A stretch of 64,000 nt of DNA, taken from NCBI RefSeq assembly GCF_000497245.1, contig NZ_AWTC01000006.1, positions 1-64,000 on the forward strand. Direction: 5' to 3'. Origin of the DNA: Sporolactobacillus laevolacticus DSM 442 (lineage in GTDB: Bacteria; Bacillota; Bacilli; Bacillales; Sporolactobacillaceae). Below the pieces are notes generated by a model that was given only the letters and a program-made list of their open reading frames with translations, did no database searches and was not told where the DNA came from. A program made the position numbers and the translations under genes. Positions 3,477-47,834 of this stretch are shown piece after piece (position 1 is the stretch's first letter; every line of letters begins with the position of its first letter).

Positions 3477-3530
3477 AAACTTGTGATATTCTATATATTT
3501 ACATTTTATTATCACATTGGAGGGTTATTA

Positions 3531-4625
3531 ATGGTTGACGAACGCGCTCCACATCTCTACGACCGTATTGATGAAAAAACGGCACAACTTCCATGGTATG
3601 TTGATGAGTATGTGAACAAAAAGATGCGTGTCATGTCACCGAGATCGCTGTTAAACTATTGTCACGATTATCTTATCTTCTTTGACTGGTTGCTTGCTGA
3701 GGGTTATTACCAGGGAAAACGAACCGACATTTCGCTTGAATGCTTGGAGAAGTTGACTCCTCAATCGATCGAAAATTTTCTTTCGTATCTCCAGTTTCGT
3801 CTACAGAACGACAAATTCACGATCAATCGCAAACTTTCCTCATTGAAATCTTTATTCAATTATTTGCAGAATGTAGCTGAAACGAACGATCTTAAACCCT
3901 ACATTGTCCGAAATGTGATGGCGAAAATCGCTTTTAACAAAATTACAGAAGATCAGGAAACCGTTGCTCAAAAGATGGCCGGTAAAATACTATGGGATGA
4001 TGAGTATGAGGCGTTCCGTCAATTTGTCGCCGATGGTTATCGGGAAATCGTCAAGGAGAATCAAAAGCTGCTCAATTTTCACGCGCAGAATGCTGAACGC
4101 GACACAGCTATTGTCTCATTAATCCTCGGATCAGGCTTGCGTCTTTCCGAAGTGGTCGGCTTGGATATTAACGATGTTGACTTTCAGAAACGAATGGTGC
4201 GCGTGATTCGCAAAGGAAACAAAGAGCAATATGTATTCTTCAGTGAGCAAGCTGGCCTCGACCTAGAGGACTATTTGACTGTACGCAGCAAAAAATATAA
4301 AATCCCAACAACAAACCAGGCACTTTTCGTATCTGCAGCCATGGGCCCCAAAGACACTACGCGCCGTCTGAGCGCGCGCGCCATCGAAAATTTGGTAAAA
4401 AAATATGCAAAAACATTTGGCAAACCCTCCCTCTCGGTTCACAAGTTACGCCACTCTTTTGCTACGCGCTATCAGGCTGAGAACAATGATATTCCAAAGC
4501 TGCGTCGCCAACTTGGCCACTCTGCAATACAAACGACCATGATCTATACACATCTCTCGAATGATGAACTCAAGCGAGCTGTCGATCATATGGATGATCA
4601 TTTCAAGAAAACTGAAGATAATTAA
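3531..4625 (+). CDS. xerS: XerS-like tyrosine recombinase
   Basis: A 364-residue tyrosine recombinase, most like XerS, the single-subunit enzyme that resolves chromosome dimers at difSL in streptococci and relatives. The N-terminal SAM-like core-binding domain covers about residues 20-130. The catalytic set is complete: Arg in GSGLRLSEVVGL, Lys in RKGNK, HKLRHSFATRY (His-x-x-Arg), LGHSAIQTT and the nucleophile Tyr in MIYTHLS. The start at 3531 follows GGAGGG by 6 bases. The gene has its own promoter and ends before a strong terminator. No phage genes adjoin it, which fits a housekeeping role rather than a prophage integrase. A mobile-element integrase remains possible. Confidence 0.8.
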   Translation: MVDERAPHLYDRIDEKTAQLPWYVDEYVNKKMRVMSPRSLLNYCHDYLIFFDWLLAEGYYQGKRTDISLECLEKLTPQSIENFLSYLQFRLQNDKFTINRKLSSLKSLFNYLQNVAETNDLKPYIVRNVMAKIAFNKITEDQETVAQKMAGKILWDDEYEAFRQFVADGYREIVKENQKLLNFHAQNAERDTAIVSLILGSGLRLSEVVGLDINDVDFQKRMVRVIRKGNKEQYVFFSEQAGLDLEDYLTVRSKKYKIPTTNQALFVSAAMGPKDTTRRLSARAIENLVKKYAKTFGKPSLSVHKLRHSFATRYQAENNDIPKLRRQLGHSAIQTTMIYTHLSNDELKRAVDHMDDHFKKTEDN

Positions 4626-12768: not shown

Positions 12769-13143
12769 ATGGGAGTTCCTGTTACTGGTTTCGTGTTCCA
12801 TTCTGATGATTCAGACCCGCTTCACTCACATCAACTTTTTATTACGAGTTGGGACGGTGTGCCTGTGCATGTCCATCAATTTAGGGGCACTACCTCTTTT
12901 GATGATGGACACAGACATCAATATGCCGGAACTACTGAACCCGCTCCTAGTGATGTTCCGCATTCTCACAGGTATTTCACCATGACTTCTGTTAATGATG
13001 GACATAGACATCAGATATCAGGCATTACAGGGCCTGCAATTCCACTGCCTAATGGAGGACACTATCACGAATTCAGAGGAACGACCTCAGTGAGTGGGGT
13101 TAATCCTCATACTCACCAATACTCTGGTCAAACAAGCCAATAA
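12769..13143 (+). CDS. YmaF-family His-rich repeat protein
   Basis: A protein of 124 residues built from repeated His-rich strands such as FDDGHRHQYAGTTEPA, VNDGHRHQISGITGPA and GGHYHEFRGTTS. The pattern D/N-G-H-x-H followed by G-T-T/S matches the YmaF family of Bacillales, small proteins thought to be spore-associated and possibly metal-binding. The repeats recur about every 25-30 residues, which suggests a beta-solenoid or repeated beta-hairpins. GAGG precedes the ATG by 8 bases. A CATATGAAT sequence about 50 bp upstream could be another sporulation -10 box. Confidence 0.82.
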   Translation: MGVPVTGFVFHSDDSDPLHSHQLFITSWDGVPVHVHQFRGTTSFDDGHRHQYAGTTEPAPSDVPHSHRYFTMTSVNDGHRHQISGITGPAIPLPNGGHYHEFRGTTSVSGVNPHTHQYSGQTSQ

Positions 13144-13668: not shown

Positions 13669-13755
13669 ACTTATTAATTCCCTCCCTGCTTATTTTTCTA
13701 TCTATTTCTATTAATATCGCCGTTCCTGATATGGGAACCTTTATTACTTGTTAAT

Positions 13756-13835
13756 TTATTGCCAATCTAAAAAATTCCCTTCATCATACTTAATTTTAGC
13801 ACCTTTCTCTTTTACTGGTAATTCGTAAGCCTAGG
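13756..13835 (-). pseudogene. C-terminal gene remnant at prophage junction
   Basis: A 24-residue open tail (ELPVKEKGAKIKYDEGNF, ending DWQ) closes at 13756. It lies directly against the truncated holin and looks like the 3' end of a gene cut by the deletion that ended the prophage here. The parent gene is not recognised. Confidence 0.3.
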
Positions 13836-13839
13836 GTTT

Positions 13840-14061
13840 TCAGTACACGAAAAAGAGCATCACCTTTTTGGCGATGCCCCTAAATCCAACTTTACTAGAT
13901 AATGTACCGGTGTAAGATGCGGCGAGCATGCCAGTCACATAATCGATAATCACAAATGTAATTAAGATCCTGATCATTGGTGACCACCCTTGATACAGAT
14001 AGCCGGTCACCGCTCCAAGAATTGCAGCTGCAGCTCGATAGACAAATTCGTATTTGTTCAT
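13840..14061 (-). pseudogene. Phage holin, truncated
   Basis: The first 72 residues of a toxin-secretion/phage-lysis-type holin. They match the intact holin at 36128-36532 almost residue for residue (start MNKYEFVYRAAA, LITFVIIDYVTG, then GIAKKVMLFFV) and then stop abruptly. About half the protein is lost. The break at about 13848 marks the left end of the older prophage, where unrelated sequence begins. The start at 14061 follows the same GGAGG context as the intact copy. Confidence 0.85.
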
Positions 14062-14250
14062 TTGTTCGCCTCCATGTTTATAAAAAATAGGACTCCGAAG
14101 AGTCCATGAATAGGAAAAAATAAAATTAACAGCCTTAGAGAATGAACAAGTAAACTTCATTCATAATAATAATTAGACAATGTGAATACCATATGAATTT
14201 ATTAAGCGTTTGACTACGTAAATTCAATTTGTTATCACATGTAATGCATA

Positions 14251-14400
14251 AAAAAAACGGACCCGGGGGGATCCGTGAGGGGAGTTAAATTTTTTGATCA
14301 CTATATATATCGGTTTGAATCCTATCAATTTAAGCCATTGATGATCGCCACCTTTAGTGAGATAGGCAAAATAAAAAGACCTTTTCAGGTCTCCTTAGTT
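14251..14400 (-). other. Conserved non-coding block B, copy 1 (terminator plus leader)
   Basis: A block shared with 36556-36704. It contains, in minus-strand order, the hairpin AGACCTGAAAAGGTCT (14377-14392), TATCTCACTAAAGGTGGCGA, a conserved AT-rich part and a strong terminator CGGATCC-CCCC-GGGTCCG followed by T7 (14251-14275). It separates a variable membrane gene from the holin gene in both prophages. Confidence 0.65.
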
Positions 14401-14463
14401 TGCTGATTCAACTTTAGCAATTCAAGATATTCATCGATCGTTTCAGCAAGCAAACAATTAATT

Positions 14464-14940
14464 TCATAGTACCAATATAATTCTTTTTTGTCTGTTTAAA
14501 TATGATCCGATCCAATATACCGATATAATCATTACCAAGATAATTAATAGATATAATGGCCATGAATAAGCACCAAGAATAAGTTCCGTTATTTGTGAAG
14601 GTTTACTATTAAAATGATTTGAAATGTAGTTAGATAATGTACCAATCATACTGACAGCAATACTTATAAAGCTACCTATGGATGCAATCAAGATTGCAGT
14701 TCCTTGTTGTCCTACTCCATCCATCCCTTTGTGAACTAATATCGATCCTTCAATTCGTTTTAACATTTTTTTAATTCATTAGTATTAAACCTATTAGCAA
14801 ACTCCTTTTTAATCATTTCTTCTCTGCTAAAAGTTAGCCTTTTAACTCTTGTGCTTTTTTGGAATATCAGACAATACATCTGAAATTACTTTTTTCGATA
14901 ATTTCAGTACTGATTTTGAATCTGCTAAATCTTTATTCAT
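14464..14940 (-). pseudogene. Phage-carried membrane protein, frameshifted
   Basis: The reading frame starts at 14940 (MNKDLADSKSVLKLSKKV, after GAGGTG) and is lost near 14860. A second frame continues with STRVKRLTFSREEMIKKEF and then two transmembrane helices (AILIASIGSFISIAVSMIGT and LYLLIILVMIISVYWIGSYL). Together they would give about 158 residues. It occupies the position held in the second prophage by a different membrane protein of 165 residues, between the holin block and the tail genes. The function is unknown; superinfection exclusion is a guess. Confidence 0.55.
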
Positions 14941-15072
14941 TATGATCACCTCATTATTATATCGATCATTATAAGGTGATAATTAACAATTTTTAACGAC
15001 TTACGGCAGGTCCAAGAAGGCATAAAAAATAAGCCTTACGCAGGCTCAAGCGAGATGAATGATCACCTCCTC

Positions 15073-15216
15073 TCAAACAGAATCATTTCTTTTTATTCCA
15101 AAGGTTTCCTTGACTAGCTTGTTACCGTCAAAAAATCGACGGAGAATGAAAAATGCTTTTTCTTCTGGAATTTCAGTTTTCCGGTCAATCGATAGATAGA
15201 ATGTTTTAACTTCCAA
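15073..15216 (-). CDS. Small phage protein, unknown
   Basis: A protein of 47 residues starting at TTG (15216) with AAGG 9 bases upstream: MEVKTFYLSIDRKTEIPEEK, then AFFILRRFFDGNKLV. It overlaps the end of the minor-head/peptidase pseudogene by 11 bp, as expected for tightly packed phage genes. It is intact, charged, without a membrane segment. I cannot assign a function. Confidence 0.5.
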   Translation of the reverse strand: MEVKTFYLSIDRKTEIPEEKAFFILRRFFDGNKLVKETFGIKRNDSV

Positions 15217-16787
15217 TGTCACGACCTTCTTTCACACCGTACTTTTGCAATACCGCATACCGTTCCGGAAAGAAAAATTGAATGGTTCTCCGCTCGATAC
15301 TGCCTGGGCTCCAGTGGTACATAATTGTTTCCGCAATATCCTCATAGATGTCTGTCTTAGCATAGTCCGTAATATGCGCGGCGTCTTTCTTGGCTGCCTT
15401 CTTCCAGTCTTTCAAGAATTGATCACCAAGAGTTTCTTGCAAGGCATGTGCCGTATCGTGCCGGCTCGTACCCGCAAGTAGTGTATTTCGCTGATCATTA
15501 TCCAGCCAATCATTTCGGTACAGTTCAATGTTTTTGCTTTTGAGATCAAAACCACCAATGGCCGAATCGAAAATCTCACCTTCAAGTTCATCGTAAGGTA
15601 TCAAGTACATGGATTTCTTTAATCACACTCCGATGTTCCTTCGGAATCTGATTGATGAAGTTTTTTACATCATCAATGGAGAGCTTCTGCATATCAGTAT
15701 CAAGATCAACCAGCTGCACAATAGGGACACCAGATGAAATGTCCACCCTTGCCGCGCGCTCTGATTCATCTAGCATCTTTGGTTATCACATCTGGATTAC
15801 TCTTTGGCATCCTTTTATCACCGATCCACTCATCATATGACTGAAAAGGAATGGTTACACTCGGCGCGCTGGTTTCCTTTTTAGCCTGTTTCTCCGCCTG
15901 TTTTTCGGTCATTCCGTCTGCCATAAGCTGGATTCCGATTCGATTTGCCAGCTTCTGCTGATAGGCAGCGTCCTGATAGTCTCTCGCTCGGCGTGTGTCC
16001 GGGAGCTGACCATTCACCTTGAATATTTTCACACATCGGCATTGACAATCTTCATTCGTCACGCCGAACAGGTGCGGCCACTTTGCTTTTAATCCATGGA
16101 TATGAAAGTATCCATCTTTATCAGCTTCCTGCCCGTCCAGCTTACGATGATTCGGTCGTGTACTCATGTCCGGAGAACGTTATGCCAAGTTGGCAAACAG
16201 AGTTCAAAAAGCTGTTGGGTTTAGTCATGCAAAAGCATGCAATGTGGTGAGAACAGAAGCTGGCCGGGTGCGGTCCGTTGCCCGTAACGAAAGTGCCGAT
16301 ATCGCAAGCAAACAAGCTGATCTTGTTGGCGTATGGAATGCAACGCTGGACATGAGCGATTGGCTGATCTCAAGATCATTTTTTCTCACAATCTCATTCC
16401 GATGTGTTTCCATCAAGGACGGAAGTGTCAGTTTTGGTATTGGATTCTTGACCGCCGCTTGGATCACAGAGAGCGGTGGAATCGTCACACCTAGTGGCGT
16501 TTGTGCCGCAAGCTCAAACAAATATGATGACTTCATAAAGTTTTGCAAATACACATTTCAAGCAATCCCTGTATGTTCGTGAGCAGCTGCTGATATCGAT
16601 TAAAGTGATTCAGGTCCGTCCATGACAATTCACCTTCTCCGTTGGAATATTTCTGATACATTGTTGCAATTTGATTCAAGATCGTTTTTAAACGCACGGC
16701 GAACAGCTTGTCCATGTCACTTACAGCGTTCTCAGTCATCCGATCTAGTGATTGGTCAATTTCCTGTTGGTTCACCGCCATCACCAC
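15206..16787 (-). pseudogene. Phage minor head protein (SPP1 gp7 type) with peptidase-like tail, broken
   Basis: The gene is readable in pieces: an N-terminal part (16787-16533), a frameshift near 16545, a second part to 16357, an inverted block (16163-16356), then the gp7 C-terminal part with TRPNHRKLDG and the Cys motif CQCRC (16167-15766). Two overlapping frames follow. One (15776-15588) carries PIVQLVDLDTDM. The other (15610-15206) has HDTAHALQ, which resembles a zincin HExxH motif with Asp in place of Glu. SPP1 gp7-like proteins join portal and capsid during head assembly. The gene follows the portal pseudogene directly. At least one frameshift plus the inversion make it non-functional. 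Confidence 0.85.
16163..16356. other. 194-bp micro-inversion inside the minor head gene
   Basis: The block is bounded by the perfect 9-bp inverted repeat CTCATGTCC (16163-16171) and GGACATGAG (16348-16356). On the plus strand it encodes the missing middle of the minor head protein, including NVVRTEAGRVR and LVGVWNATLDM. Turning it over restores one unbroken minus-strand frame from 16554 to 15766, reading SQSLMSGERYAK at one joint and TLDMSTRPNHRK at the other. Confidence 0.9.
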
Positions 16788-18140
16788 CTTGACCGCTGTC
16801 TATCGGTGGTAGATTGCGTGCGTATTCATCCTGATCCTTTTGCATTTCTTCGAGTTCATAATCAACATCATCAACAAACGAGAGCAGTGAAAGTCGTGTT
16901 TTCTCGCTCACGTTCCCTTTTGATGCGGCTGTCGCTTGTGCTTCCTCAAGGATGTTTGCCGGTAAGTTACGCTTGAACCCGAACCAAACATTCAAATATG
17001 CTCTTTCTTGCAGATACCTTTCTTCTCCCATGCTGAGCAGAGTACCTTGAATTGATATCGAAGTGCAACCGTCATCTTACCTTCCATCGTCACGCATTTG
17101 TTTTCCAAGGCAAGCAGTTTAAATTTCATTGCCACGCCGCTGACATTCCCCGCGAATTCCTCATCACCAAAGTTAACCGACTTGGCATACCTCAAGATAT
17201 TCTGTTCTAATCTGTCTAAGTGATGCTCAATCAGCTCGTCATTAACCTCTTTGTTTAGGTACTTGATGTCGTCACTGTCGTCCATGAGTTCAAAAACCCC
17301 TGTTTTTTTCAGGTGCTCTGTATCTTCTTCATCCAGTGAAGCACCTTTAAGTACTAAATAAGCTAATCGATACTGTTCAATTTCATTGCTGGCATCACTT
17401 AATGTCCGATCATACGCATCAATGAGAGAAATGACTTTTTCGGCATCACCCATGAGTTCTTTGTTGTTCGGAATGCCTAATAATGGATTGTAATCAAAGA
17501 GATGCGCTTTTTCTCCATCTAATCGATACTCTCCACTTTCATCGGAGAAGAAATAGACAGTCTGATCATCATAAAATTCAGCGTAATTATGGCCATCCAA
17601 CCGGTAATAGTACAGCGAATAATCCGGACAGGTGATATCTTTACCGATGAGTACAACATGCCAAGGCTCAATACATTCTGAATTTGGTTCACCGTCTGGA
17701 TCAATAAAAACAAGCCGTGCACCATAGCCACAAATTGCAGCGAATTTACCACACTCAGCATCTTGATCCGATGCATTGCTTCGCAGAAGAAAGGATTGTA
17801 TCTCGTCGTTCCAAGGTTTGTTTGCCTTATCAGCTTCATAAGTAATCGGATGACCGAAAATATAACCAATCTTCGTGTCCACAATATCGGAATCAAAACT
17901 GTTATTGAGCATATTGTTAACCTTGTCATCAAGCCGAAACACATTCTTTGATTCGCCGGTTCCATAATTGATCGGGCTACGATTGAATATTTTGGGGCCG
18001 TTAGGCTTCACACAGTAACGATCATAGAGTTGCTTCAGGTGATCATGTCCTTTCTGGTGATCACCGATGATTTCTTGCACTAATTCAGCTGTAATTCCTG
18101 TCTGTTCGATTTTCTTGATGTACTTAATAAACTGATTCAT
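16756..18140 (-). pseudogene. Phage portal protein (SPP1 gp6 type), frameshifted
   Basis: The portal forms the dodecameric channel through which DNA enters the head. The main frame (18140-16992) carries the family blocks KVNNMLNNSFDSDIVDTKIG and DAYDRTLSDASNEIEQYRLA, and it follows the intact portal at 53673-55130 throughout. It is lost near 17010, after VLCSAWEKKGICK. The other frame (to 16756) continues with FGFKRNLPANILEEAQATAA. A small indel is the simplest cause. It overlaps the terminase gene start by 17 bp in the normal head-gene order. Confidence 0.88.
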
Positions 18141-19293
18141 CAGGTTCCCTCCTTCCTGTTCTGCGCCTCATTGGACGGTTATTCGTATAAATTGCATAAC
18201 GGATAGCATCTAGCACGTCATCCCAAAGCTTTACTTGTTCTCCGGTTGTCTCGTTCCAGACGTACATATAAGTCTCTTTTTTGAAGCGTTGGACACGTTC
18301 TTTCACGATAAATAGCTTCTTTCGTTTAAACAGTCGAGCCACCTCTTCAATCCCTGCAATAACTGCCTTATCTGCGTTATAAGCTTTGAAGTTCTCTATT
18401 CTCAGCCGAATGATGTGTTCCGGACGCGCTGTGTAGCAATAAAAATGGATGTTTCCATAACGACTTTTAATGCCGCTGGCCACATCCACCCAATAATCGA
18501 TTTCTTCAAATTGTTTTGCGTGTTCCTCAATCGACTCCGGCGAAGTATCTTACAAAATTGATCTCGCTCAACTTAGATTACTGATGTAGTGAATATCCTT
18601 GTTGAAATCCTTGTATACAACGCCTTCAGCAGCGCACCACAGACCATTAATGTCTCGGTCATAGAACATGCCACTCGGCGTTGTCGCCTTTATATTCTCC
18701 CGGTACCTCTTATTTAGGAACGTGTTATCATCCAAAACAAAGTGAAAGTCCACAATACTTTTATCCGGATTGTCGATGTAATCTCGCTTTAGCCAACGCT
18801 CCGGTTGATCCGGGCTCGTATCGATCAGAATTCGTGCTCCGTTGGCAGAGCACCGGGATTTGATTTCATTAAAAACTTCCTCATTGGCAAGCGAATCTTC
18901 ATTAATGTATGCGCCGTAAGCAGTCATGCCTCGAATTCTGCTCAAGTCGTTGATCTTGCTGTGACCCGTGCACACCACAAGCACACCGAACAATTTGAAT
19001 CGGTTGTACTTATCCATGTGGAAGTTAATGCCGTATTTGTTGGTCAACTCAATTAAGACGTTTTTTGCTAGGTTTCCTAGGTTCGCGCCAGCAAGAATGT
19101 ACTGCGGATTCTCCACGCCTTCATTCGTCGCAATGCGTTTGACACATTTCAATTCATACAGGAACAAGTCATTGTCGATAACCGTCTTACCGGTTCGCTT
19201 CGCCCCGTGATTAATCAGCATGAAATAATCATGGTTGAAGGCATATCGAAGAACTTCCTGCTGCTTCGGCGTATAGAGTTCACTCAGAGTCAT
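18124..19293 (-). pseudogene. Terminase large subunit (PBSX XtmB type), deleted
   Basis: The ATPase half (19293-18568) is nearly identical to the intact TerL at 55127-56353 and keeps the Walker A segment HGAKRTGKTV. After DFNKDIHYIS the frame shifts, and about 60-70 bp are missing compared with the intact copy, which removes the first nuclease Asp region (AGVDFGYDHHG). The C-terminal part resumes at 18489. There the intact FYCDTARPEH reads FYCYTARPEH, so a second catalytic Asp is also lost. The enzyme cannot package DNA. Confidence 0.9.
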
Positions 19294-20024
19294 CGCTGAA
19301 CGCCTCCTCCAGCTTGTCTAGGAGATTGCCAACTTTGTCCTCTGTATTTTCCCCCAGTATCGGTTGATGCCCGTATCTGGTCAATACGAGCCTGCATGAG
19401 TTCCAGCTTCTTCTTACGCTCATCTTCTTCGTTTGCGATAGCCAAGAATTGTTTTATCAGCGCTCTCAATTCGCCCATAGCCCGACTCTGAGCATTTAAA
19501 AAGATCGCCTGTTTATCCCAAGCGAACTGTAATTCATATTCTTCTTCGGAACTGCTGCCACTTTGAGAATAGGATTCTTTCGTACGTTTAAGTTCTTTTG
19601 TTAAGTCGTCTTTATCTGTAACAAACTTAATTCTTTGTGCTCTGATAATAGCTGTGTACTGAATCATGATCTAATCCCCTAACATATCTTCAGGGGGACG
19701 ATCCTGAATTTCATTCATGATGTCGAGTGATTCTTCAGGTAGATACTTAGAGAAGAACCCGAACTTTAAAGCATTTGTGTTCCTCTTAGGTGGCCCTTGT
19801 CCCTTTGCATTTTGGTTTCCAGGTTGCCCTCCAGGATGCCCACGAGTATGTTTAGGAGCGCTCCCTTTTAATTCGTTATCCCATTTATCCTGTGCTTTCC
19901 ACTTGCGGATGGTGCTGGGTGTGACGTTCATTTGTTCAGCAAGATCAACTAATTTCAATTCGCCTTTGCTATTCAGCCATACGGATTTCGCTTCATCTCG
20001 TCTTGGATCTCTTGGTCGTGGCAC
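19290..20024 (-). pseudogene. Terminase small subunit, amber codon and frameshift
   Basis: The DNA-recognition N-terminus (PRDPRRDEAKSVWL, HTH QMNVTPSTIRKWKAQDKW) is intact and resembles the TerS at 56340-57182. At 19671-19673 an in-frame TAG replaces what was probably a CAG Gln codon; the same frame continues at once with IMIQYTAIIRAQ. Near 19358 an extra base shifts the last 20 codons after DQIRASTDTG. TerS selects the packaging site and directs TerL, so both packaging genes are dead here. Confidence 0.85.
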
Positions 20025-20072
20025 TGCATTTCACCCACCTCCGGATTAAATGTCGTTTGTTTTGGGTAAAAG

Positions 20073-20099
20073 AAAAAGCACTCTAAATGAGCGCTTTTA
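20073..20099 (-). terminator. Terminator upstream of terminase genes
   Basis: AAAAGCGCTC pairs with GAGTGCTTTT around ATTTA and runs into T residues. It separates the small early genes from the terminase operon. Confidence 0.55.
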
Positions 20100-20135
20100 T
20101 TACATCCATTTTTTCAATTCTTCTTCATCAATATA

Positions 20136-20333
20136 TTACATTAAATTATATTCAATCAGCTTGCTTCTTGCTTTTATAAGGAGCTTCACACTTTTTTTCT
20201 TATCACTTTTTATATCTGAATCATAGAAGTTTTTAATTAACGCAATCAGAATTTCTTCAGGACCAGCTATCGATGTGTTCATTTTGATTTGATTATATCT
20301 ATTTGCCAACTCATCAAGTTTTGTTTTATTCAT
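20136..20333 (-). CDS. Small phage protein, unknown
   Basis: A basic, helical protein of 65 residues (MNKTKLDELANRYNQIKMNT; SDKKKSVKLLIKARSKLIEY). Its ATG overlaps the stop codon of the preceding gene (TGATG), which suggests translational coupling. GGAGAGGA lies just upstream. No family is recognised. It is intact, unlike most late genes nearby. Confidence 0.45.
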   Translation of the reverse strand: MNKTKLDELANRYNQIKMNTSIAGPEEILIALIKNFYDSDIKSDKKKSVKLLIKARSKLIEYNLM

Positions 20334-20578
20334 CAACGGTCCTCTCCATTATTAACTTTTTCTTTCATTATTTCATTTCTATCAATCTGGACAGCATATA
20401 TTTCAGAGCACATTTGATTTGAAAATGGAGTATGAACTACTAATTCTACCCTATACCAATCACCCTCTGAAGATAAACAAACATATTCACCTTCAACTGG
20501 GATTCTCTCAAACTGATAATATTGATTAGCCCAATCATGTTTTTCTTTACTGTGTAAATGAAATAATACAGGTTTCAT
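20333..20578 (-). CDS. Small phage protein, unknown
   Basis: A protein of 81 residues beginning MKPVLFHLHSKEKHDW. The pattern of alternating strands (EYVCLSSEGDWYRVELVVHT) suggests a small beta-barrel-like fold. The start at 20578 has AGGAG 9 bases upstream. The stop overlaps the next gene's start codon. It forms a two-gene unit with the gene at 20136. No function is assigned. Confidence 0.45.
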   Translation of the reverse strand: MKPVLFHLHSKEKHDWANQYYQFERIPVEGEYVCLSSEGDWYRVELVVHTPFSNQMCSEIYAVQIDRNEIMKEKVNNGEDR

Positions 20579-20633
20579 CGCTATCATCTCCTGCATTATA
20601 GTTTACTACAATAGGAAACAGTTTCCAATAAAA

Positions 20634-21116
20634 CTAGAGTGTCCCACATTGTCTGCTTTTAATATACATGTCTAGCAATTCATTACCAGAAAACTCCTTG
20701 ATTAGACTTAACTGTTTTAAATTAAACCACCATGTGCTTTCCGTATACCATGATAAAAAATGTGAAGATGCTCCACTACTTTTTACTGTTTTAAGATAAT
20801 CAAAACATAGGTGTATACCATCAAATTCCTTTTTTAACTTTGCATAATCTCCACAGTAATCAATCATGAATATTTCTTCTTTTTCAAAACTATTTATATG
20901 AAATAATCTTGAATCCTCATTTACCTCAAATAAATACCCTTTGTCGTATATCAGAAATTCTTCTGGTATCCATCCTTCAATAATCCAGTGAGAGCCTTTT
21001 CCCTTAATGAATGATGACGTCCAAAATCCTCCCCTGCGTCTATCTGATTCTCTGATGGTAGAATCTATTTTTTGAGATTTGAACTCTGATAGTGATACAA
21101 ACAACTGATCTTTCAT
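20634..21116 (-). CDS. Hypothetical protein in prophage accessory region
   Basis: A protein of 160 residues, rich in aromatic residues (GSHWIIEGWIPEEFLIYDKG; SWYTESTWWFNLKQLS), without membrane segments or a known motif. GGGGACAGG precedes the ATG. It has no counterpart in the second prophage. Its position between the early small genes and the packaging genes is typical for a cargo gene. No function is assigned. Confidence 0.5.
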   Translation of the reverse strand: MKDQLFVSLSEFKSQKIDSTIRESDRRRGGFWTSSFIKGKGSHWIIEGWIPEEFLIYDKGYLFEVNEDSRLFHINSFEKEEIFMIDYCGDYAKLKKEFDGIHLCFDYLKTVKSSGASSHFLSWYTESTWWFNLKQLSLIKEFSGNELLDMYIKSRQCGTL

Positions 21117-21207
21117 TTTACCTGTCCCCTTTAACCAATTATCGGATAAAGAGAGAATAAATCAATATAAAATTAAAACACCCCCAAAGGAGTGCATTGC
21201 AAATAAA

Positions 21208-21339
21208 TTAATCTTTTAACAGTAATTCTTTAAGTGCAGTATCAAAACAAAGGAATAATGTTTCAAAACTACCTGGTATTGTATCAATTGAACAATGATC
21301 AACGAAGTAACGAGTAACAATATAGCTTGTTCTCTTCAA
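21208..21339 (-). CDS. Possible small phage protein or gene remnant
   Basis: A frame of 43 residues from a TTG (MKRTSYIVTRYFVDHCSI, ending ETLFLCFDTALKELLLKD). It begins just after the gene at 21356 ends. The ribosome site is weak, and the frame is open further upstream without a standard start, so it may be a decayed gene whose beginning is lost. Confidence 0.3.
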   Translation of the reverse strand: MKRTSYIVTRYFVDHCSIDTIPGSFETLFLCFDTALKELLLKD

Positions 21340-21355
21340 GCCAACTTTGCTCGTT

Positions 21356-21565
21356 TTAGTAAATTTTATCTGGTTGCCAATTATGTCTACTTTTATAGTA
21401 CAAATCAGGAAATTTTATGAGAGTTTCTTCTTCGTCATACTGAATTTCCGTATTACTTGTGTGTTCTTTAATTGGTTTTAATACACTATTAATTGCGTCA
21501 GTAACTTTTTTTGGATCGGCATTTACCTTCCCTATTTTACCTAGATATTCAAAATACCAGCTCAT
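21356..21565 (-). CDS. Hypothetical phage protein
   Basis: A protein of 69 residues starting at the ATG of MSWYFEYLGKIGKVNADPKK, with a C-terminus containing YDEEETLIKFPDLYYKSRH. Mixed alpha/beta with no known motif. A longer start at 21628 is open but lies within the repeat shared with 59850 and has no ribosome site. A 29-bp repeat lies just upstream, as it does before the unrelated gene at 59500. Confidence 0.4.
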   Translation of the reverse strand: MSWYFEYLGKIGKVNADPKKVTDAINSVLKPIKEHTSNTEIQYDEEETLIKFPDLYYKSRHNWQPDKIY

Positions 21566-21598
21566 ATCTAACATCCCCATTCTGCAGATTAACAATAT

Positions 21599-21627
21599 AT
21601 TCCACAAAATAGGACAATGTTCCTGCA
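21599..21627. repeat. 29-bp repeat shared by both prophages, copy 1
   Basis: ATTCCACAAAATAGGACAAT plus TGTTCCTGCA-type continuation occurs identically at 59850-59878. Each copy lies just 5' of a minus-strand accessory gene. On the minus strand it contains TTGTCC, which could be a -35 box. Confidence 0.6.
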
Positions 21628-21742
21628 CATTCGCAAAATAAAAAGGTGGAAAAATTCCGACATAATCAAGTTATTCCATAAATATAATCACTCTAAGAGC
21701 CAACCACTCTATCACCACAACAAGAAGAGGAGCGATTTATTT

Positions 21743-21862
21743 ATGAAAAAATTGTTCAAGATTAGACTGGTATTTTTTCACTTCTATTTAGAACTATACG
21801 TTCTGTTCCTATTAAGTCTCATGATTACTTGTATCACAGCCATTTTTTTACATCTCTTTTAA
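21743..21862 (+). CDS. Small hydrophobic peptide, candidate type I toxin
   Basis: A peptide of 39 residues on the plus strand inside a minus-strand phage region (MKKLFKIRLVFFHFYLELYV, then LFLLSLMITCITAIFLHLF). It has a basic N-terminus and one long transmembrane helix. AGAGGAG lies 9 bases before the ATG, TATAAT lies about 65 bp upstream and a terminator follows. This independent unit resembles prophage type I toxins such as TxpA or BsrG in size and layout, but no antisense RNA is proven. Confidence 0.5.
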   Translation: MKKLFKIRLVFFHFYLELYVLFLLSLMITCITAIFLHLF

Positions 21863-21895
21863 TGATGATCAAACACATGGTTGTAATACATCAAG

Positions 21896-21926
21896 AAAGT
21901 AGGGATCTTGTTTCCCTGCTTTTTTG
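21896..21926 (+). terminator. Terminator of the small hydrophobic peptide unit
   Basis: AGTAGGGA pairs with TCCCTGCT around a short loop and is followed by TTTTTG. Confidence 0.75.
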
Positions 21927-21979
21927 TTTTATTTAATTTATTTGTATTCATGAAAGTTAAAAAAATGATATTTATATAT

Positions 21980-22070
21980 TATTTAATAAAAAACCAGCAC
22001 CGCAAGGTGCACAACGTCTTCGCTTGTTGTTCAGTGGGCTTTACCTCTCCAACCCACCTGCCATATTACC
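21980..22070 (-). ncRNA. Conserved structured RNA candidate C, copy 1
   Basis: On the minus strand GGCAGG(T) is followed by two stems and ends in GCACC-TTGC-GGTGC, then TGG and T6. The last hairpin (21997-22010), the GGCAGGT start and the internal stem layout recur at 60320-60396 in the second prophage although the stem sequences differ. Compensating differences would mean a folded RNA with its own terminator. No coding frame explains the conservation. Confidence 0.45.
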
Positions 22071-22131
22071 ATTATAATACAGATTTTCAATGAAAAAGTT
22101 CCTTTTTGGTTCCTTAATTAATATATTATCT

Positions 22132-22610
22132 TTAATCATTTGGTTTTGGATAAAGTATGCAGCGAGCGTGATCAACAGCCTTTTTTCCATTCCGCATACT
22201 GATTTTCTTAATCCAACCATAACTGTACCCCAGTTTGTCCGATATCTCAGCAAGTGTCAATCCTTGAAGGCGCCAGTATGCAACTAGATAATCTAGTCCT
22301 TCAAACTCATCAAGCTTTTCTCCATTTTCGCTTTAACTCGTTCTTTATCATCCATAACTTTTCTTAGTATAATTAGTTTATTATCTAGACTCGTGATGTG
22401 ATCTAGTGCACGATTAAATGGCATCAGCGTGAAATTATGGCTTACACGGTCTTCATCGTAGTTCGCGGCCCTAATCATTCCCCTATGCTGTGTTGACATC
22501 TTCCAGTAATACTTGCGCTCACTTTCCAGTTGGCTAATGCGCATATCTAAGAGATCAATTTCACGGCACAAGTCGCGGTACTCGGTAATTGGTAACAGAT
22601 CAGCAGTCAT
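22132..22610 (-). pseudogene. Sigma-70 region 4-like phage regulator, frameshifted
   Basis: The first frame (22610-22293) has LCREIDLLDMRISQLESERK and YYWKM, matching the intact regulator at 61485-61898. The frame is lost near 22315. The next frame carries the helix-turn-helix tail FEGLDYLVAYWRLQGLTLAE and ISDKLGYSYGWIKKIS, ending at 22132. In the intact form such proteins (DUF1492/Xpf-like) are thought to switch on phage late transcription. Loss of the HTH tail would silence the late genes. Confidence 0.75.
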
Positions 22611-22612
22611 CC

Positions 22613-22783
22613 TTATCGCCCCTTCCTACGTACAGCATGGTTATGTCGTTCATATCTCGGTTGGTCAACACCCATCAAATTTTCGATCGTCCGTCTGGAC
22701 AGCTTTTCAGAACGATACCCTTGTTTTTGCGAACGATTAACCTCTGTATTGATTCGTTTTCTTCTTTTTTCGGAACGATTCAC
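22613..22783 (-). CDS. Small basic phage protein
   Basis: A very basic protein of 56 residues from a GTG start with GGGGG 6 bases upstream (VNRSEKRRKRINTEVNRSQK; end ERHNHAVRRKGR). The C-terminus RRHxAxRRKGR-like ending is shared with the 46-residue protein at 61900-62040 in the same place. It directly precedes the sigma-like regulator gene, with its stop 2 bp away. A nucleic-acid-binding role is an inference. Confidence 0.55.
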   Translation of the reverse strand: MNRSEKRRKRINTEVNRSQKQGYRSEKLSRRTIENLMGVDQPRYERHNHAVRRKGR

Positions 22784-22807
22784 GAATAAGCCCCCTTTTG
22801 AGCAAAT

Positions 22808-22876
22808 AAAAAAGAGGACGCAGAAACAACGGCGTTTAACCGTCATTCCAACGTCCTCCAGCTGACTGGTAGAACT
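22808..22876 (-). ncRNA. 69-bp conserved RNA element A, copy 1
   Basis: It differs from 62061-62129 at one base in 69. On the minus strand it has a small CCAG/CTGG hairpin, then GGAGGACG pairing with CGTCCTC around an inner ACGG/CCGT stem, followed by T6. It begins at the stop codon of the membrane gene and ends before the basic-protein gene. It is probably a complex terminator or an attenuator for the regulator genes. Confidence 0.7.
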
Positions 22877-23369
22877 AAAACTTTATAAATTTATAATCCT
22901 CAACTGTTAAATCTGTATCTTGGAACCCTATATCCTTTCTCATTTCCAATACGCACTTAGCAAATAGTTTTTGTTCTTCTAATTTTTTTTGATTTTTTTC
23001 TTCATCAGATAATTTCTCTATTTGCTCATTATAAGTAATTTTGAACTGCATGTATTCAGACAATGAATGTTGAACTCTGTCGCTCGACCATAACCAAGAT
23101 TGATCATAAGCTTTTAAAAACTTTCTTTGATTATCTCTACTTTCATGTGCATTAAAACCGTCATCCTTAATAAATATTCTCATTGAATTTACTAACTCAA
23201 TATATACATCTCTTTTTTGGACTAATTTATCTTGATTTTTATATTTTTTAAAATCGGCTAAAGCTCCAATGCCACCAGATAAACTGTCATTTATCCCTTT
23301 TTTAAAGAAAATCATAATCAACAATAATCCCAACAAGATGATTTCAACAATTTGCAATAATATATTCAT
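22875..23369 (-). CDS. Membrane-anchored phage cargo protein, unknown
   Basis: A protein of 164 residues with one N-terminal transmembrane helix (LLQIVEIILLGLLLIMIFF) and a long charged, helical cytoplasmic part (KKYKNQDKLVQKRDVYIELV; EKLSDEEKNQKKLEEQ). It starts 8 bp after the xtrA stop. In the second prophage an unrelated membrane protein holds the same place between xtrA and element A. A variable membrane protein at a fixed prophage locus suggests an immunity or exclusion role, but this is not shown. Confidence 0.6.
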   Translation of the reverse strand: MNILLQIVEIILLGLLLIMIFFKKGINDSLSGGIGALADFKKYKNQDKLVQKRDVYIELVNSMRIFIKDDGFNAHESRDNQRKFLKAYDQSWLWSSDRVQHSLSEYMQFKITYNEQIEKLSDEEKNQKKLEEQKLFAKCVLEMRKDIGFQDTDLTVEDYKFIKF

Positions 23370-23376
23370 GATTAGT

Positions 23377-23574
23377 TTAGAACTCCTCCCCCTCGTCCCA
23401 CTTAACACGCTTCACCTTGCCCTGGTGCGTGACAATCGTTGTCTCTCCATGCTCAGGCAAGTCTGTAAATTTCACTTTCCCGTTCCCAATCACAATCACT
23501 TTGTTATTTATTCCCATTATATCAACATTCAGCTGCATTGTGGCTGGATCTGTCTTCATTTCTTTTAATCTCAC
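23377..23574 (-). CDS. xtrA: XtrA/YqaO-family phage protein
   Basis: A protein of 65 residues from GTG (MRLKEMKTDPATMQLN; LPEHGETTIVTHQGKVKRVK; end WDEGEEF). It differs from the copy at 62603-62800 at very few residues. XtrA-type proteins come from PBSX and the skin element; their role is unknown. The ribosome site is GGATGG here compared with GGAGGG in the second prophage. Its position before the membrane gene and the regulator is the same in both prophages. Confidence 0.82.
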   Translation of the reverse strand: MRLKEMKTDPATMQLNVDIMGINNKVIVIGNGKVKFTDLPEHGETTIVTHQGKVKRVKWDEGEEF

Positions 23575-23656
23575 GGTAATCCATCCTAATGTGGTAAAAT
23601 TAGGTATCGGTTGATCGGGAGGGATCATGATTTTTTTATAAGGAGATGCAGTCCTT

Positions 23657-23833
23657 GTGAGTTATAAACACTATCTGTTCATGGCAATTCCATTTGTAAC
23701 TGCCTTTATCTTAGTAACTTTATATGCTCCTGATTCTTTTAAACGGTTGGCATTTATTCTTATCCTGATTCCTATTGTCACTCGTGGAGTAGTTAACTTC
23801 GTGCTCAAAAGGAAAGAGAGAAATAAACAGTAG
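23657..23833 (+). CDS. Small membrane protein, plus strand
   Basis: A protein of 58 residues from a GTG (VSYKHYLFMAIPFVTAFILV) with two transmembrane segments and a basic tail (VLKRKERNKQ). AAGGAG lies about 12 bases upstream. It runs opposite to the surrounding phage genes, like two similar small genes at 24685 and 24954. It was too short for routine gene calling; the intact frame, hydrophobic pattern and basic tail support it. No function is assigned. Confidence 0.45.
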   Translation: MSYKHYLFMAIPFVTAFILVTLYAPDSFKRLAFILILIPIVTRGVVNFVLKRKERNKQ

Positions 23834-23847
23834 TGTCGGAATGTGAA

Positions 23848-24099
23848 TTATTCGTCATCAAAATCTTCTTCTATTTCTTCAACGGCAATAAACTCTTTTC
23901 TGCACTTTGGGCATTTTGCAATATGGTTAGGTGCGTCATCATATAGCCTGAATTGGTTGCCTTCACCGCAATGAGTGCATCTCCAATAACCTTGAACATA
24001 ACCAGATCGTTTTTCTGGCTGATCTTCGTTTACTGCAAACACGGTATATTCTTTATGCGCATATATATCTTTGTATTGAAACGGAACAATAAATGACAT
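23848..24099 (-). CDS. Zinc-ribbon phage protein
   Basis: A protein of 83 residues. Two CxxC pairs (WRCTHCGEGNQF and AKCPKCRKEF, about residues 40-70) form a zinc ribbon. The C-terminus is very acidic (VEEIEEDFDDE). The start at 24099 has a GGAG-type site. Small zinc-ribbon proteins are common in early phage operons and often bind nucleic acid or RNA polymerase; that role is inferred only. Confidence 0.65.
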   Translation of the reverse strand: MSFIVPFQYKDIYAHKEYTVFAVNEDQPEKRSGYVQGYWRCTHCGEGNQFRLYDDAPNHIAKCPKCRKEFIAVEEIEEDFDDE

Positions 24100-24145
24100 A
24101 GATTTTTCTCCTTCGCTTTATTTGTCAACAGCGTCGAACTGCGAA

Positions 24146-24343
24146 TTACTTTTTTATCAACCGAACATGATTTTTGATATGAACGGCTGCTAACCGTGCT
24201 AACCCATCACCGAATCTCTCAAGGTCTTTCCATTCGTCGATGGTTATTGAATCACACAGACTATTAAACTCTTCTTGGCCACCATACTGCTTGGCTTCAA
24301 CCATCTTACTGATTATTTCATGTACTGGTGTATTCATTACCAT
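24146..24343 (-). CDS. Small phage protein, unknown
   Basis: A protein of 65 residues beginning MVMNTPVHEIISKMVEAKQY and ending HIKNHVRLIKK, all helical in appearance. Three ATGs are clustered at the start; the one at 24343 has GGAGG 7 bases upstream. It belongs to the series of small early genes. No family is recognised. Confidence 0.45.
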   Translation of the reverse strand: MVMNTPVHEIISKMVEAKQYGGQEEFNSLCDSITIDEWKDLERFGDGLARLAAVHIKNHVRLIKK

Positions 24344-24378
24344 CATTATCCCTCCTCGACGCAGTGTCGAAATGTGCA

Positions 24379-24580
24379 TTAAGGTAACTTGATAAAATTG
24401 ATAATTACAATCGAACCTTCTTGATAATTAAGATCTTTTTCTAAACCTTTGCTAATTTCTTGAATGTCGTTAATATCTTTGATCTCGTTTGTTCTGTGAT
24501 GTTCTAAATTTCCAAATCCAGCGTGTGTTCTAAGATTGTCCACTGTAAACAACTTGATAAGAAATGAAATATTTAATCAT
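24379..24580 (-). pseudogene. Small phage gene, frameshifted
   Basis: The frame opens MIKYFISYQVVYSGQS with a GGGAG site upstream and hits a stop near 24530. The continuation in another frame (RTHAGFGNLEHHRTNEIKDI; then EGSIVIINFIKLP) fits a small phage protein that begins with MxKYFISY and has a conserved GFGN. One indel separates the parts. Function unknown. Confidence 0.5.
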
Positions 24581-24684
24581 GAATTCTTCTCCCTCGCTTT
24601 AGTTGTCTAATTTGCAACATTCAGATCATTCCCGCCGCATTCCGGAGTATAATAAAACAAAAGTAAGTGTTTGGAGCTGATCGA

Positions 24685-24912
24685 ATGTTTCAGAGTGTTT
24701 TAGCTAAGTTCAAACGTCATTTTAAGACAAAACGCTTTTTATATTTGGAACTCCCTTATCTGGTGATTGGGGCTTTGTTTCTAATCTTTGCTCCATACAA
24801 ATATCACCATTGGATCACCTATTTTATTTTGGTTTATGCACTCATCGCATTAATTGTTGACTTTATCGATTTTGATGCCATAAAAAAACATGATCAAAAC
24901 AGCAATTCCTGA
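24685..24912 (+). CDS. Small membrane protein, plus strand
   Basis: A protein of 75 residues from an ATG with GGAG 8 bases upstream. A basic head (KFKRHFKTKRF) is followed by two transmembrane helices (LPYLVIGALFLIFAPYKY; WITYFILVYALIALIVDFID). An intact frame against the direction of the phage operon suggests its own promoter. The next gene at 24954 is similar in layout. Function unknown. Confidence 0.5.
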   Translation: MFQSVLAKFKRHFKTKRFLYLELPYLVIGALFLIFAPYKYHHWITYFILVYALIALIVDFIDFDAIKKHDQNSNS

Positions 24913-24953
24913 AATATCCCCTGACCATCACATCTTGAAAGGACTGCATAAAT

Positions 24954-25139
24954 TTGAACTGGAGTCTCTATACCATTCTAATTATTCCTGCCCTTATCAG
25001 TTTCATAATTATAGGGATCTTTTTCCGATCTAATTATTTCTTAATCCCCATTGTTGTAGCAGTTTTTTGGACCCTGTACTATTCTATCAATTACGTTCAA
25101 CACAGAAAGAAAAATCGCAACCAAAACAACGATTCCTGA
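24954..25139 (+). CDS. Small membrane protein, plus strand
   Basis: A protein of 61 residues from a TTG with AAAGGA 11 bases upstream. Two hydrophobic helices (LYTILIIPALISFIIIGIFF; FLIPIVVAVFWTLYYSI) precede a polar tail (QHRKKNRNQNNDS). It follows the 24685 gene by 41 bp and may share its transcript. Not recognised. Confidence 0.4.
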   Translation: MNWSLYTILIIPALISFIIIGIFFRSNYFLIPIVVAVFWTLYYSINYVQHRKKNRNQNNDS

Positions 25140-25155
25140 TAAAACCCATCCGCGC

Positions 25156-25376
25156 TTATCTCAACGTCCCATCAAGAAGCAGTACGATTTCTCGATCTTC
25201 AAATTCTTTAATAATGCTCTCATCTGTAACGATCTTTCCCTCTTCTTTCAGAACACCGATCTTTCTCATTGGCGTGGCAACCTTTTGAATGATTGCGATC
25301 CTTTCAGTTGATATGAAAGATTACTAGATTCAATCTCATGTTCAAGTTGCATGCCACTGTTTGGGTATGTGGTCAT
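25156..25376 (-). pseudogene. RecU-like Holliday junction resolvase fragment, frameshifted
   Basis: The frame starts at 25376, overlapping the previous stop as ATGA, and reads MTTYPNSGMQLEHEIESSNL. This resembles the RecU start (NRGMxLExxI...N). The frame is lost near 25280, and a second frame continues IQKVATPMRKIGVLKEEGK to 25156. RecU-type phage enzymes cut Holliday junctions. The family call rests on a short similarity only. Confidence 0.4.
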
Positions 25377-25719
25377 CCACACCACGCTCCTCTAAGCGCT
25401 ATCGGTGCTTTCTGCTGACCGTAATCTTTAATCAATTGCCCTGGTCTGCCGTACTTCTTGTGTAATTCTGTAAGCTCTTTGTCCGAAAGAAAGTAACTAG
25501 TAACCGGCCCATTCGCAGGGTTAACCAGTGGCTTATGTGGCTTTGGTGGTCTTGGAGGCCGCTTTTCGCCTTTCTTGGTGCTGACCACTTCATCGGGCGT
25601 CCACTTTTGATAGTGGATCCGGTGCTGCACATTTGCTTTGCTTATCCCATTTTTCTTCATCTGCTCCAGTATTTCACCATCAAAAACGGATGACCGTCAA
25701 CATAGAATGGCTTTAACAT
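25373..25719 (-). pseudogene. Phage HTH-like protein, frameshifted at a T run
   Basis: A start at 25719 reads MLKPFYVDGHPF and then loses frame at a run of T, where one T appears missing. The restored frame (from about 25675) continues MKKNGISKANVQHRIHYQKW and a proline-rich RPPRPPKPHKP part to 25373. The segment NGISKANVQHRIHYQKWTPD resembles the helix-turn-helix of phage proteins with GISxxTxxxRxxxxGW. The longest intact frame could still make about 95 residues. Confidence 0.5.
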
Positions 25720-25811
25720 CTTTTCCACCTCATTTTTAATAAGAACTCATTTTTCCTTAATCCAAATTTAATAACTTTTTGGTAGAATTAACTTTAGAGA
25801 GGGTGACACAA

Positions 25812-25952
25812 GTGGTCACCATCAGTATTGGCGATGGAGGGGCCAATGCTTATTTCCTTTACATAAGAGTGGGAGAGTTCAGTCTCCCTAATATGATGCA
25901 TATTTTTTTGCCGGCCGGATTACTTGCAGTTATGTTTATTACTTTCTATTAA
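25812..25952 (+). CDS. Possible small hydrophobic peptide, plus strand
   Basis: A frame of 46 residues from GTG (VVTISIGDGGANAYFLYIRV, then MHIFLPAGLLAVMFITFY) with one C-terminal hydrophobic helix and a weak GGTG ribosome site. It overlaps the tail of the convergent gene at 25939. Support is modest. Confidence 0.25.
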   Translation: MVTISIGDGGANAYFLYIRVGEFSLPNMMHIFLPAGLLAVMFITFY

Positions 25953-26067
25953 AATCGACAAACACAATTTTGTCGTTATTTTTCATCTCTTCAGGTTGCC
26001 AACTTATCCAGCTATTAAGAGCTGACCAGACAAGAAACACCATAATCAGAATAAGAATGATAGTCAT
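25939..26067 (-). CDS. Small membrane protein
   Basis: A protein of 42 residues with an N-terminal transmembrane helix (MTIILILIMVFLVWSALNSW) and a polar tail (QPEEMKNNDKIVFVDFNRK). AAGGTG lies 8 bases before the ATG. It is intact and in line with the minus-strand early gene set. Function unknown. Confidence 0.45.
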   Translation of the reverse strand: MTIILILIMVFLVWSALNSWISWQPEEMKNNDKIVFVDFNRK

Positions 26068-26162
26068 GGATTTACACCTTCAACCATTATTTTTCACTCA
26101 GGATTCCCAAAGCTGACCTTTTTCATGCTCTCGCCTCAGCCAGCTTATGGTCAATCTACAAG

Positions 26163-26273
26163 TTATTCATCATCTTCCTCCTCGTCATCGTTCAGGCTAG
26201 CTTTCATCCACTGTGCATCTTTTCTTGAAATAGCGAGTTGAACAGGTTTGGATTCAAAGTCATCGTTGGTCAT
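26163..26273 (-). CDS. Small acidic phage peptide
   Basis: A frame of 36 residues (MTNDDFESKPVQLAISRKDA, ending in the acidic run LNDDEEEDDE). A different frame just upstream looks like a lost N-terminal part, so this may be the tail of a frameshifted gene. Confidence 0.3.
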   Translation of the reverse strand: MTNDDFESKPVQLAISRKDAQWMKASLNDDEEEDDE

Positions 26274-26326
26274 ACCATGCACTAGCTTTTTTCACTGTAA
26301 ATCCAGTTACTGCCTTTTCCCCTCCA

Positions 26327-26482
26327 TCATTGCTCACGCCGCTGCGCCTTCTTTCCCTGCTTTTTGCGTGGGCGATTCTCCTTCTCGCAGTCCTCACACA
26401 GCCGTGGATAGCCTGGTTCTTCACCATCGATCAAGCTGCCGCATCGTTCGCAGTAAAAGCCGTTTAGCTTTGGTTCAGGCAT
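26327..26482 (-). CDS. Small zinc-finger phage protein
   Basis: A protein of 51 residues. Two CxxC pairs (FYCERCGSL and LCEDCEKEN, residues 11-14 and 29-32) form a compact treble-clef or ribbon, followed by a basic tail (RPRKKQGKKAQRRE). GAGGAGC precedes the ATG by 8 bases. It is intact and easily missed because of its size. Such proteins are typical of phage early operons. Confidence 0.6.
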   Translation of the reverse strand: MPEPKLNGFYCERCGSLIDGEEPGYPRLCEDCEKENRPRKKQGKKAQRREQ

Positions 26483-26744
26483 TCAACTGAGCTCCTCTCT
26501 TCAAGTTCACTTTCAGCTTTGCCAATTCACCGATGAAAAAGCACTGCTTGCCTAGACCATCACGTTTGGAAGTTTTTACATGTTTTCCAGTTCAGCAATT
26601 CGTTCCTGGATCTCGTTCAACTTGTCTTCACCTCGTTTTCTTTTTTTAGCTGTTCATAGGTTGCAACGAATCGTTCAAAGCGTTCCGGGGACAACCTTTT
26701 TTCATGGCCTCCATGAGCTTGGACATTTTCTGACTCTCGGTCAT
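26477..26744 (-). pseudogene. Two decayed small phage genes
   Basis: The first starts at 26744 (MTESQKMSKLMEAMKK) and loses frame at an A run; the continuation KRLSPERFERFVATYEQLKK ends at 26617. A second frame (KTSKRDGLGKQCFFIGELAK, then LKVNLKRGAQLNA, ending 26477) lacks a standard start codon. Both look like small early genes damaged by single-base changes. Confidence 0.35.
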
Positions 26745-26813
26745 CCATAAACCATCGCTTTCTCAATTCCGATCATAAATGAAATAGGAGCAGTCAAAAG
26801 AAAAGTCGTAAAA

Positions 26814-27436
26814 ATGCATCAAGGTTTTAAAGACAAACCAGAATTGTTATCTTTCTACCTTCCCTCTACCTAGGAACTATTACATGGTTTAAGTGATCAT
26901 TTAAACGAATTAATAAAAAAAACTGGTGAAATTGATGAATTCTTAATTGATGATTTAGATATTTGGTGAGAATTAAAGGAAAAGATTTTACTCGAGGAAA
27001 AAGAAGTAATTAAGCTTAACTATTTTGCTAAAGAACTAGCCCTGAGCAATAGATCCGGAATGGATGAAGTCATTTTTGAGAGTTCAATCATTGATAAACC
27101 AATAATTACAGCTGATAGAAATACAAGAAAATTACTGACAGAAAGAGCGAAAATTCTTATTCAAAGTACAGACTTCATAGAAGGTAAAGCAGCAATTAGA
27201 GAAATCGATTTAGATAATAAAACTGTTACTGCCCGACCGCTGAGTTTCAAAGATGCGGAGATCGAAGATATTACTCTTAAGATACCTAGCGATATTTCAA
27301 CGGATACACTAATGGCATTTGCTGCAAAAATTGTTTATATCAGTGGATATTTAATTTTAAATTTAAAGGTGAACCGATTGATGTAACAGTTGAAGATATC
27401 AGATTAAACCAATCTGAAGAAAATAATTCTGAGTAA
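26814..27436 (+). pseudogene. Unknown gene with two in-frame stops and a late frameshift
   Basis: One frame runs from ATG 26814 (MHQGFKDKPELLSFYLPST), through an in-frame TAG (26871) and an in-frame TGA (26967), to VIFESSIIDKPIITADRNTR and beyond, about 180 residues. Near 27365 it shifts to a frame ending GEPIDVTVEDIRLNQSEENN at 27436. The plus-strand position next to the integrase remnant suggests a lysogeny-region gene. The family is not recognised. Confidence 0.5.
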
Positions 27437-27544
27437 ATTAATTGTTTCATCTGAGACGCAACGTATCATGAATCAATTAGTTGCTCAACTTGCTGAGAAT
27501 GGTGAATCTCATGAGATCAAAAGTTTACTATGAGGGGAGCGACC

Positions 27545-27857
27545 ATGAAGGAAATTTATACCCGTTTGGTACACAATCGAAGGATTACTCAATTGGGAAA
27601 AACCTACATTTTATTTTTTGGTCACGACCCCATTTGAGCGAATGGATAGTATCCAATTTGACGACGAGCTCATAGGATGTTCTGTATTTGCTCAAGAACT
27701 CCTTCCGAACGAGAACAAATCCAATCAATTAGGCATTAACCTCGGTGCCGTCAGAAGCCGAATTGGTGAACTTGTTGAACCGTATAATGTCGAACGGTTG
27801 ATAATTCAAATCACGGACATCGAAGAAATGCTTCATGCAGGAAGCGAATTATTCTAG
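27545..27857 (+). pseudogene. Unknown lysogeny-region gene, frameshifted
   Basis: The frame from 27545 reads MKEIYTRLVHNRRITQLGKT and stops early. A second frame (27618-27857) continues TPFERMDSIQFDDELIGCSV and ends EMLHAGSELF. One indel near 27610 explains both. A 21-codon frame just upstream (27468-27533) may be part of the same decayed region. Function unknown. Confidence 0.4.
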
Positions 27858-27935
27858 TGGCACTAAATGTTCGCTATAACGTTCCTCTGTACATGCTTTG
27901 CCACATTACTTACAGTGCCATAGAAAGGAATATAT

Positions 27936-28500: not shown

Positions 28501-28506
28501 GATAAA

Positions 28507-33501: not shown

Positions 33502-33519
33502 TTTTTAGGAGGATTTGAA

Positions 33520-47818: not shown

Positions 47819-47834
47819 TTATGTTCATCCTCCC

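Follow-up and report, generated by a model that had tools for sequence, protein, structure and literature searches.

A minor head gene within a prophage remnant

Within the window, that is, the whole 64,000-nucleotide stretch of DNA that was analysed, genes for the small and large terminase, a portal protein and a minor head protein of a phage follow one another on the minus strand. The small terminase gene (TerS; 19283-20030) undergoes a frame shift at about 19350 and its reading frame stops early at 19671, while the large terminase gene (TerL; 18124-19293) is interrupted by two internal in-frame stops and lacks about 23 codons relative to the locus L029. The SPP1-type portal gene (16756-18140) carries a frameshift at about 17000 and lies directly upstream of the minor head gene, which is composed of an N-terminal (upstream) flank (16357-16787), a 194-bp block on the plus strand (16163-16356), a downstream flank (15766-16162) with the end of the Phage_Mu_F domain and the sequence beyond it, and C-terminal pieces (15206-15776) that match the related loci L018 and L021. 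Outside the block, the minor head gene has suffered a deletion of about 45 bp in the N-terminal flank, as measured against L019, and three frameshifts, at about 15595-15600, 15780-15787 and 16557-16566. The frameshift that the preliminary description of this DNA had placed near 16545 maps to the last of these. Not counting the inversion described below, about 4 kb of sequence carries at least seven lesions: two stops in TerL and frameshifts in the minor head gene (three), the portal gene (one) and TerS (one). The locus is a decaying prophage remnant, and the proposal that the inversion sits in such a remnant is supported by the frameshifts and deletion of the minor head gene as well as by its broken portal and terminase neighbours.

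The gene that hosts the block is of the SPP1 gp7-like minor head type, and it belongs through its relatives L016 and L021 to the same family as SPP1 gp7 (Phage_Mu_F; PF04233, TIGR01641). Both relatives exceed the PF04233 cut-off; L021 exceeds that of TIGR01641 too, and L016 scores 33.3 bits, under the TIGR01641 cut-off of 39.65. Unlike SPP1 gp7, the locus has its domain on two strands, and each piece is sub-threshold (24.3 and 20.9 bits against the Phage_Mu_F cut-off of 29.6), as expected for a split pseudogene. It has been reported that SPP1 gp7 is dispensable for assembly, about 25% of the virions lacking it being infectious, and that many phages carry toxin domains fused to gp7-like proteins (PMC6316719). 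The minor head proteins of L016-L021 have long C-terminal extensions, of which the remnant retains the pieces mentioned above; the extension of L021 contains a sub-threshold match to Peptidase_Mx1.

A second, related prophage, whose genes are open and oriented alike, is found farther along the contig, at about 34-64 kb, with an integrase at G000:C6:82779-83360. Its large terminase gene and that of the remnant share 91% identity over 883 bp, and for the holin gene the figure is about 87% over 228 bp. When positions 44000-63900 were compared with seven records, the 22 matches showed a single orientation per record. Between the two prophages lies an ATP-dependent DNA ligase gene (30144-31106; PF01068, PF04679), and beside the second one a gene for a protein that combines an LXG domain with a bacterial EndoU nuclease domain; a CdiI_4 immunity protein comes next (31627-33888), and the two look like an interbacterial toxin-immunity pair. 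Elsewhere in the window, a histidine-rich YmaF-family protein is encoded at 12769-13143, and the last quarter only of an ACR3 arsenite transporter gene (1349-1663; profile positions 245-327 of 327) is found in an apparent ars gene cluster, whose members were judged by eye.

Orientation of the block and its 9-bp arms

A protein search with the downstream piece retrieved 11 IMG/VR loci. One of them, L015, comes from a record of 14,050 bp that matches the window with 100% identity; it is probably the same strain and not an independent case. The other ten share 59-85% protein identity with the downstream piece. In nine of these ten a single open frame runs across both joint positions, the tenth (L024) beginning within the gene. 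The upstream flank, the block and the downstream flank were each searched separately by blastn against the 11 loci, L015 being set aside as identical to the window. The match to the upstream flank stops at locus position 2811 in L016, L019 and L020 and at 2778-2802 in L017, L018, L021, L023 and L025, with no match in L022 and L024. The block then matches in reversed orientation, from locus position 2812, in four of the ten loci (L016, L019, L020 and L021), the remaining six giving no DNA match to it at an E value of 1e-3, and the match to the downstream flank sets in again at 3000-3028 in all nine loci for which this region is present in the same numbering (L024 being cut). It should be considered in these counts that L017 and L018 share identical alignments, as do L019 and L020. 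Since the flanks and the block were searched apart, the call of an inversion is independent of the 9-bp arms described below.

The same picture was obtained at the protein level, where the orientation test took in L016, L018, L019 and L021 of the ten non-identical loci: in all four the block aligns as 64 residues on the plus strand and both flanks align on the minus strand. Across the seven relatives of the alignment, the 63 residues of the block fall at one and the same place. The Pfam model of Phage_Mu_F is likewise broken at the block, with model positions 12-74 on the plus strand and 76-110 on the minus strand. When the larger region 13700-29200 was compared with four virus records, 30 blastn matches were obtained, and three of the four records each contained a single stretch of opposite orientation, which begins at 16163 and extends to 16269, 16354 or 16357; apart from this block no microinversion was detected in that comparison. 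The segment 16163-16356 therefore occupies the other strand than in related phages: between collinear flanks it reads as the reverse complement of the orthologous sequence, and the net base change is zero. The frame arithmetic of the separate pieces agrees with this. Positions 16357-16554 comprise 66 stop-free codons with a codon boundary exactly at the joint, the block contains no stop codon on the plus strand, and, 194 leaving a remainder of 2 when divided by 3, the downstream frame resumes at the third codon position. Accordingly, the earlier claims that the block carries the missing centre of the gene on the opposite strand, and that turning it over restores an open frame with nothing lost or gained, were borne out by the DNA and protein matches, the split Pfam model and the reading frames, and the comparison with relatives that had been suggested as a check found the homologous block there, reversed relative to 16163-16356 (4 of 10 loci by DNA, 4 of 4 by protein).

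The perfect 9-bp inverted repeat that had been described as bounding the block is present without mismatch, the left arm at 16163-16171 (plus strand; CTCATGTCC) and the right arm at 16348-16356 (minus strand; GGACATGAG as read on the plus strand). The arms coincide with both breakpoints and are separated by a spacer of 176 bp. Pairs of 9-bp inverted repeats with a spacer of 100-300 bp are common, 101 being found in the 64-kb window, and the 1.2-kb region also contains a longer perfect inverted pair, of 11 bp. When random 194-bp segments were drawn, 30 of 200,000 had a perfect repeat of at least 9 bp no more than 14 bases from their ends, and with a slack of 4 bases (20,000 trials) the fraction was 0.0015; because such a repeat at the ends of a random segment is rare, the arms very likely took part in the inversion. 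Among the seven types of relatives, L024 (which lacks the left arm) being left out of the count, the arm positions pair at 2-7 of the 9 bases (5 in L016, 5 in L017/L018, 4 in L019/L020, 7 in L021, 4 in L022, 2 in L023 and 5 in L025), and in these relatives they are ordinary head-protein codons. As a site, the inverted repeat lacks conservation.

Wider searches covered genomes and phage collections. Six of 58 genomes, including the own one, gave some DNA match to 15200-18600, and none beyond the own genome covers the block; among 26 genomes of the family, the own one and G005 (at 30%) match the downstream piece. Two pattern scans of genome contigs matched 315 and 22 stretches, none of which was confirmed, and thus yielded no relative, whereas in a scan of viral contigs with the peptide of the block 2 of 54 stretches were confirmed, corresponding to the twin record of the window and to the record of L016. 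The L016 protein is matched by 173 records of a phage collection, 145 of which cover at least 80% of the protein in one place; the best 20 of the 173 are all single-piece and show no inversion.

Origin of the inversion and competing explanations

The best explanation of the locus, to which a probability of roughly 0.86 is given, is that a decaying prophage remnant underwent one inversion, which was not programmed. Two coding stretches of the minor head gene would by chance have formed a short inverted repeat, 176 bp apart, and the DNA between the arms would have been copied or rejoined in reverse during replication or break repair, either by template switching between the arms or by microhomology-mediated repair, leaving exact joints. 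The inversion would then have persisted because the gene was dead or dispensable. A route that works without a dedicated recombinase is suggested by the anatomy of the block together with the literature on microinversions; we also infer that the event took place once and at a time of little selection on the gene. At least one other route would leave the same trace here as template switching, which the preliminary description named. Bacteria are known to undergo inversions at short inverted repeats: for a gene with 12- or 23-bp inverted homology, rates of 4e-9 to 1e-7 per generation are attributed to Miller and co-workers (PMC7451550). Between human and chimpanzee, 59 microinversions are described, all flanked by inverted repeats of 3-75 nt and most of them copied exactly; template switching is said to explain only some of them, and microhomology-mediated break repair has been proposed (PMC8755829). 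In yeast genes, template switching inverts spacers, as reported only with arms longer than 9 bp and for inverted spacers of a few bases (PMC8604942), which weakens this route for a block with 9-bp arms and a 176-bp spacer. As far as these two sources describe them, neither the yeast nor the primate inversions are a close match to such an arrangement. A second copy of the block as donor in a gene conversion was rejected, given that the genome holds one match to 15700-16900.

The age of the event was approached through codon differences. Relative to L016, the block shows 26 synonymous and 13 non-synonymous differences among 63 codons, the upstream flank 29 and 6 among 62, and the downstream flank 48 and 20 among 118, while L016 and L019 differ from each other within the block by 21 synonymous and 20 non-synonymous changes. 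The non-synonymous share of the block is thus higher than that of the upstream flank, and the same holds between L016 and L019. Of the columns that do not vary among the relatives, the window departs from 1 of 23 within the block, from 0 of 17 in the upstream flank and from 5 of 55 in the downstream flank; decay is thus not clearly more advanced in the block than around it. The codon pattern of both block and flanks still resembles that of a functional gene, which points to a fairly recent death of the gene. The suggestion that the inversion is young is compatible with these differences but only weakly tested by them, because in an already dead gene the block and its flanks would decay alike whatever their orientation; the comparison mostly tells more about the death of the gene than about the date of the inversion.

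An artefact of assembly, with the block lying forward in the real chromosome, is an unlikely alternative. The genome is a 32-contig draft, and the sole other record with the inversion, that of L015, is 100% identical over 14,050 bp and may derive from the same strain or assembly. However, a 9-bp repeat is too short to mislead the usual assemblers, the surrounding lesions include in-frame stops and deletions and go beyond single-base shifts, and long open genes are found in the related prophage farther along this contig (about 34-64 kb), indicating that the assembly is not generally poor. General sequencing error is unlikely as well, the genes of the second prophage being long and open and those of the remnant bearing stops, deletions and frameshifts together.

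The other reading put forward initially, a programmed intragenic inverton through which the head protein would be turned on and off by phase variation, has very little probability. It could draw on the exact joints and perfect inverted arms, on the absence of stops in the original sense of the block, and on a genome with seven matches to the tyrosine recombinase family PF00589, six of them above the cut-off, the nearest to the block being XerS (3483-4625), about 11.5 kb away. Against it, the gene is broken by lesions outside the block whichever way the block lies, so that neither orientation gives a working gene, and the arms are not kept in related loci as a recognition repeat would be. The recombinase scans of the genome covered two families, PF00239 and PF00589. 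Of the two PF00239 matches, one is in a frame of 569 aa, a length typical of large serine recombinases, and the other is partial and has two stops; no small serine invertase was found in that scan, and no serine or tyrosine recombinase of these families adjoins the block as a linked or dedicated invertase. Moreover, the relatives with a readable block show one orientation (4 of 4 by protein, with seven types aligned), and one orientation only is seen in the lineage of the window, represented by the window itself and the probably non-independent L015. The phase switch is therefore not supported.

Just as improbable is that the inversion was the selected mutation which first inactivated the phage, ahead of the other lesions. 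The working-gene-like codon pattern of the block and its flanks, with a fairly recent death of the gene, is compatible with such an order of events. The block is accompanied by at least seven other lesions within about 4 kb, however, and the loss of a protein without which SPP1 assembles, about 25% of the virions remaining infectious (PMC6316719), would be a weak way of disabling a phage. Least probable of all is that the block still flips at a low rate through a recombinase needing very short arms; if this were true, structural phage genes in the genus would carry cryptic intragenic switches.

Relation to known inversions

The non-programmed inversion proposed here is close to several described phenomena. 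It resembles the Escherichia coli system of Schofield, Agbunag and Miller (1992), as it is reported, in being a rare, non-programmed intragenic inversion at short inverted homologies, and differs from it in that the homologies of that system are of 12 or 23 bp and its inversions were obtained by laboratory selection, whereas the block has 9-bp arms and lies in a natural remnant. The microinversions between human and chimpanzee share with the block that they are reverse-complemented with respect to their counterparts and have short inverted repeats at their boundaries, but the ones described measure 17-33 bases and belong to eukaryotes, compared with the 194 bases of the block (PMC8755829). With the intragenic invertons presented by Chanin et al. 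(2024), the block shares an inverted segment within one gene and between inverted repeats; in contrast to them, it is seen in one orientation, has no linked serine or tyrosine recombinase and no conserved repeat, and its host gene is also broken elsewhere. Among the papers listed by a literature search on microinversions with inverted repeats in prophage pseudogenes, none bears on the case at 16163-16356.

The inversion is a further case of a known kind of mutation, and a 194-bp inversion raises no new question by itself. Its value lies in the clean natural case that it provides, a bacterial prophage in which 194 bp were inverted at chance repeats of 9 bp, and in the caution that it carries: inverted repeats around an inverted intragenic block do not amount to a phase switch.
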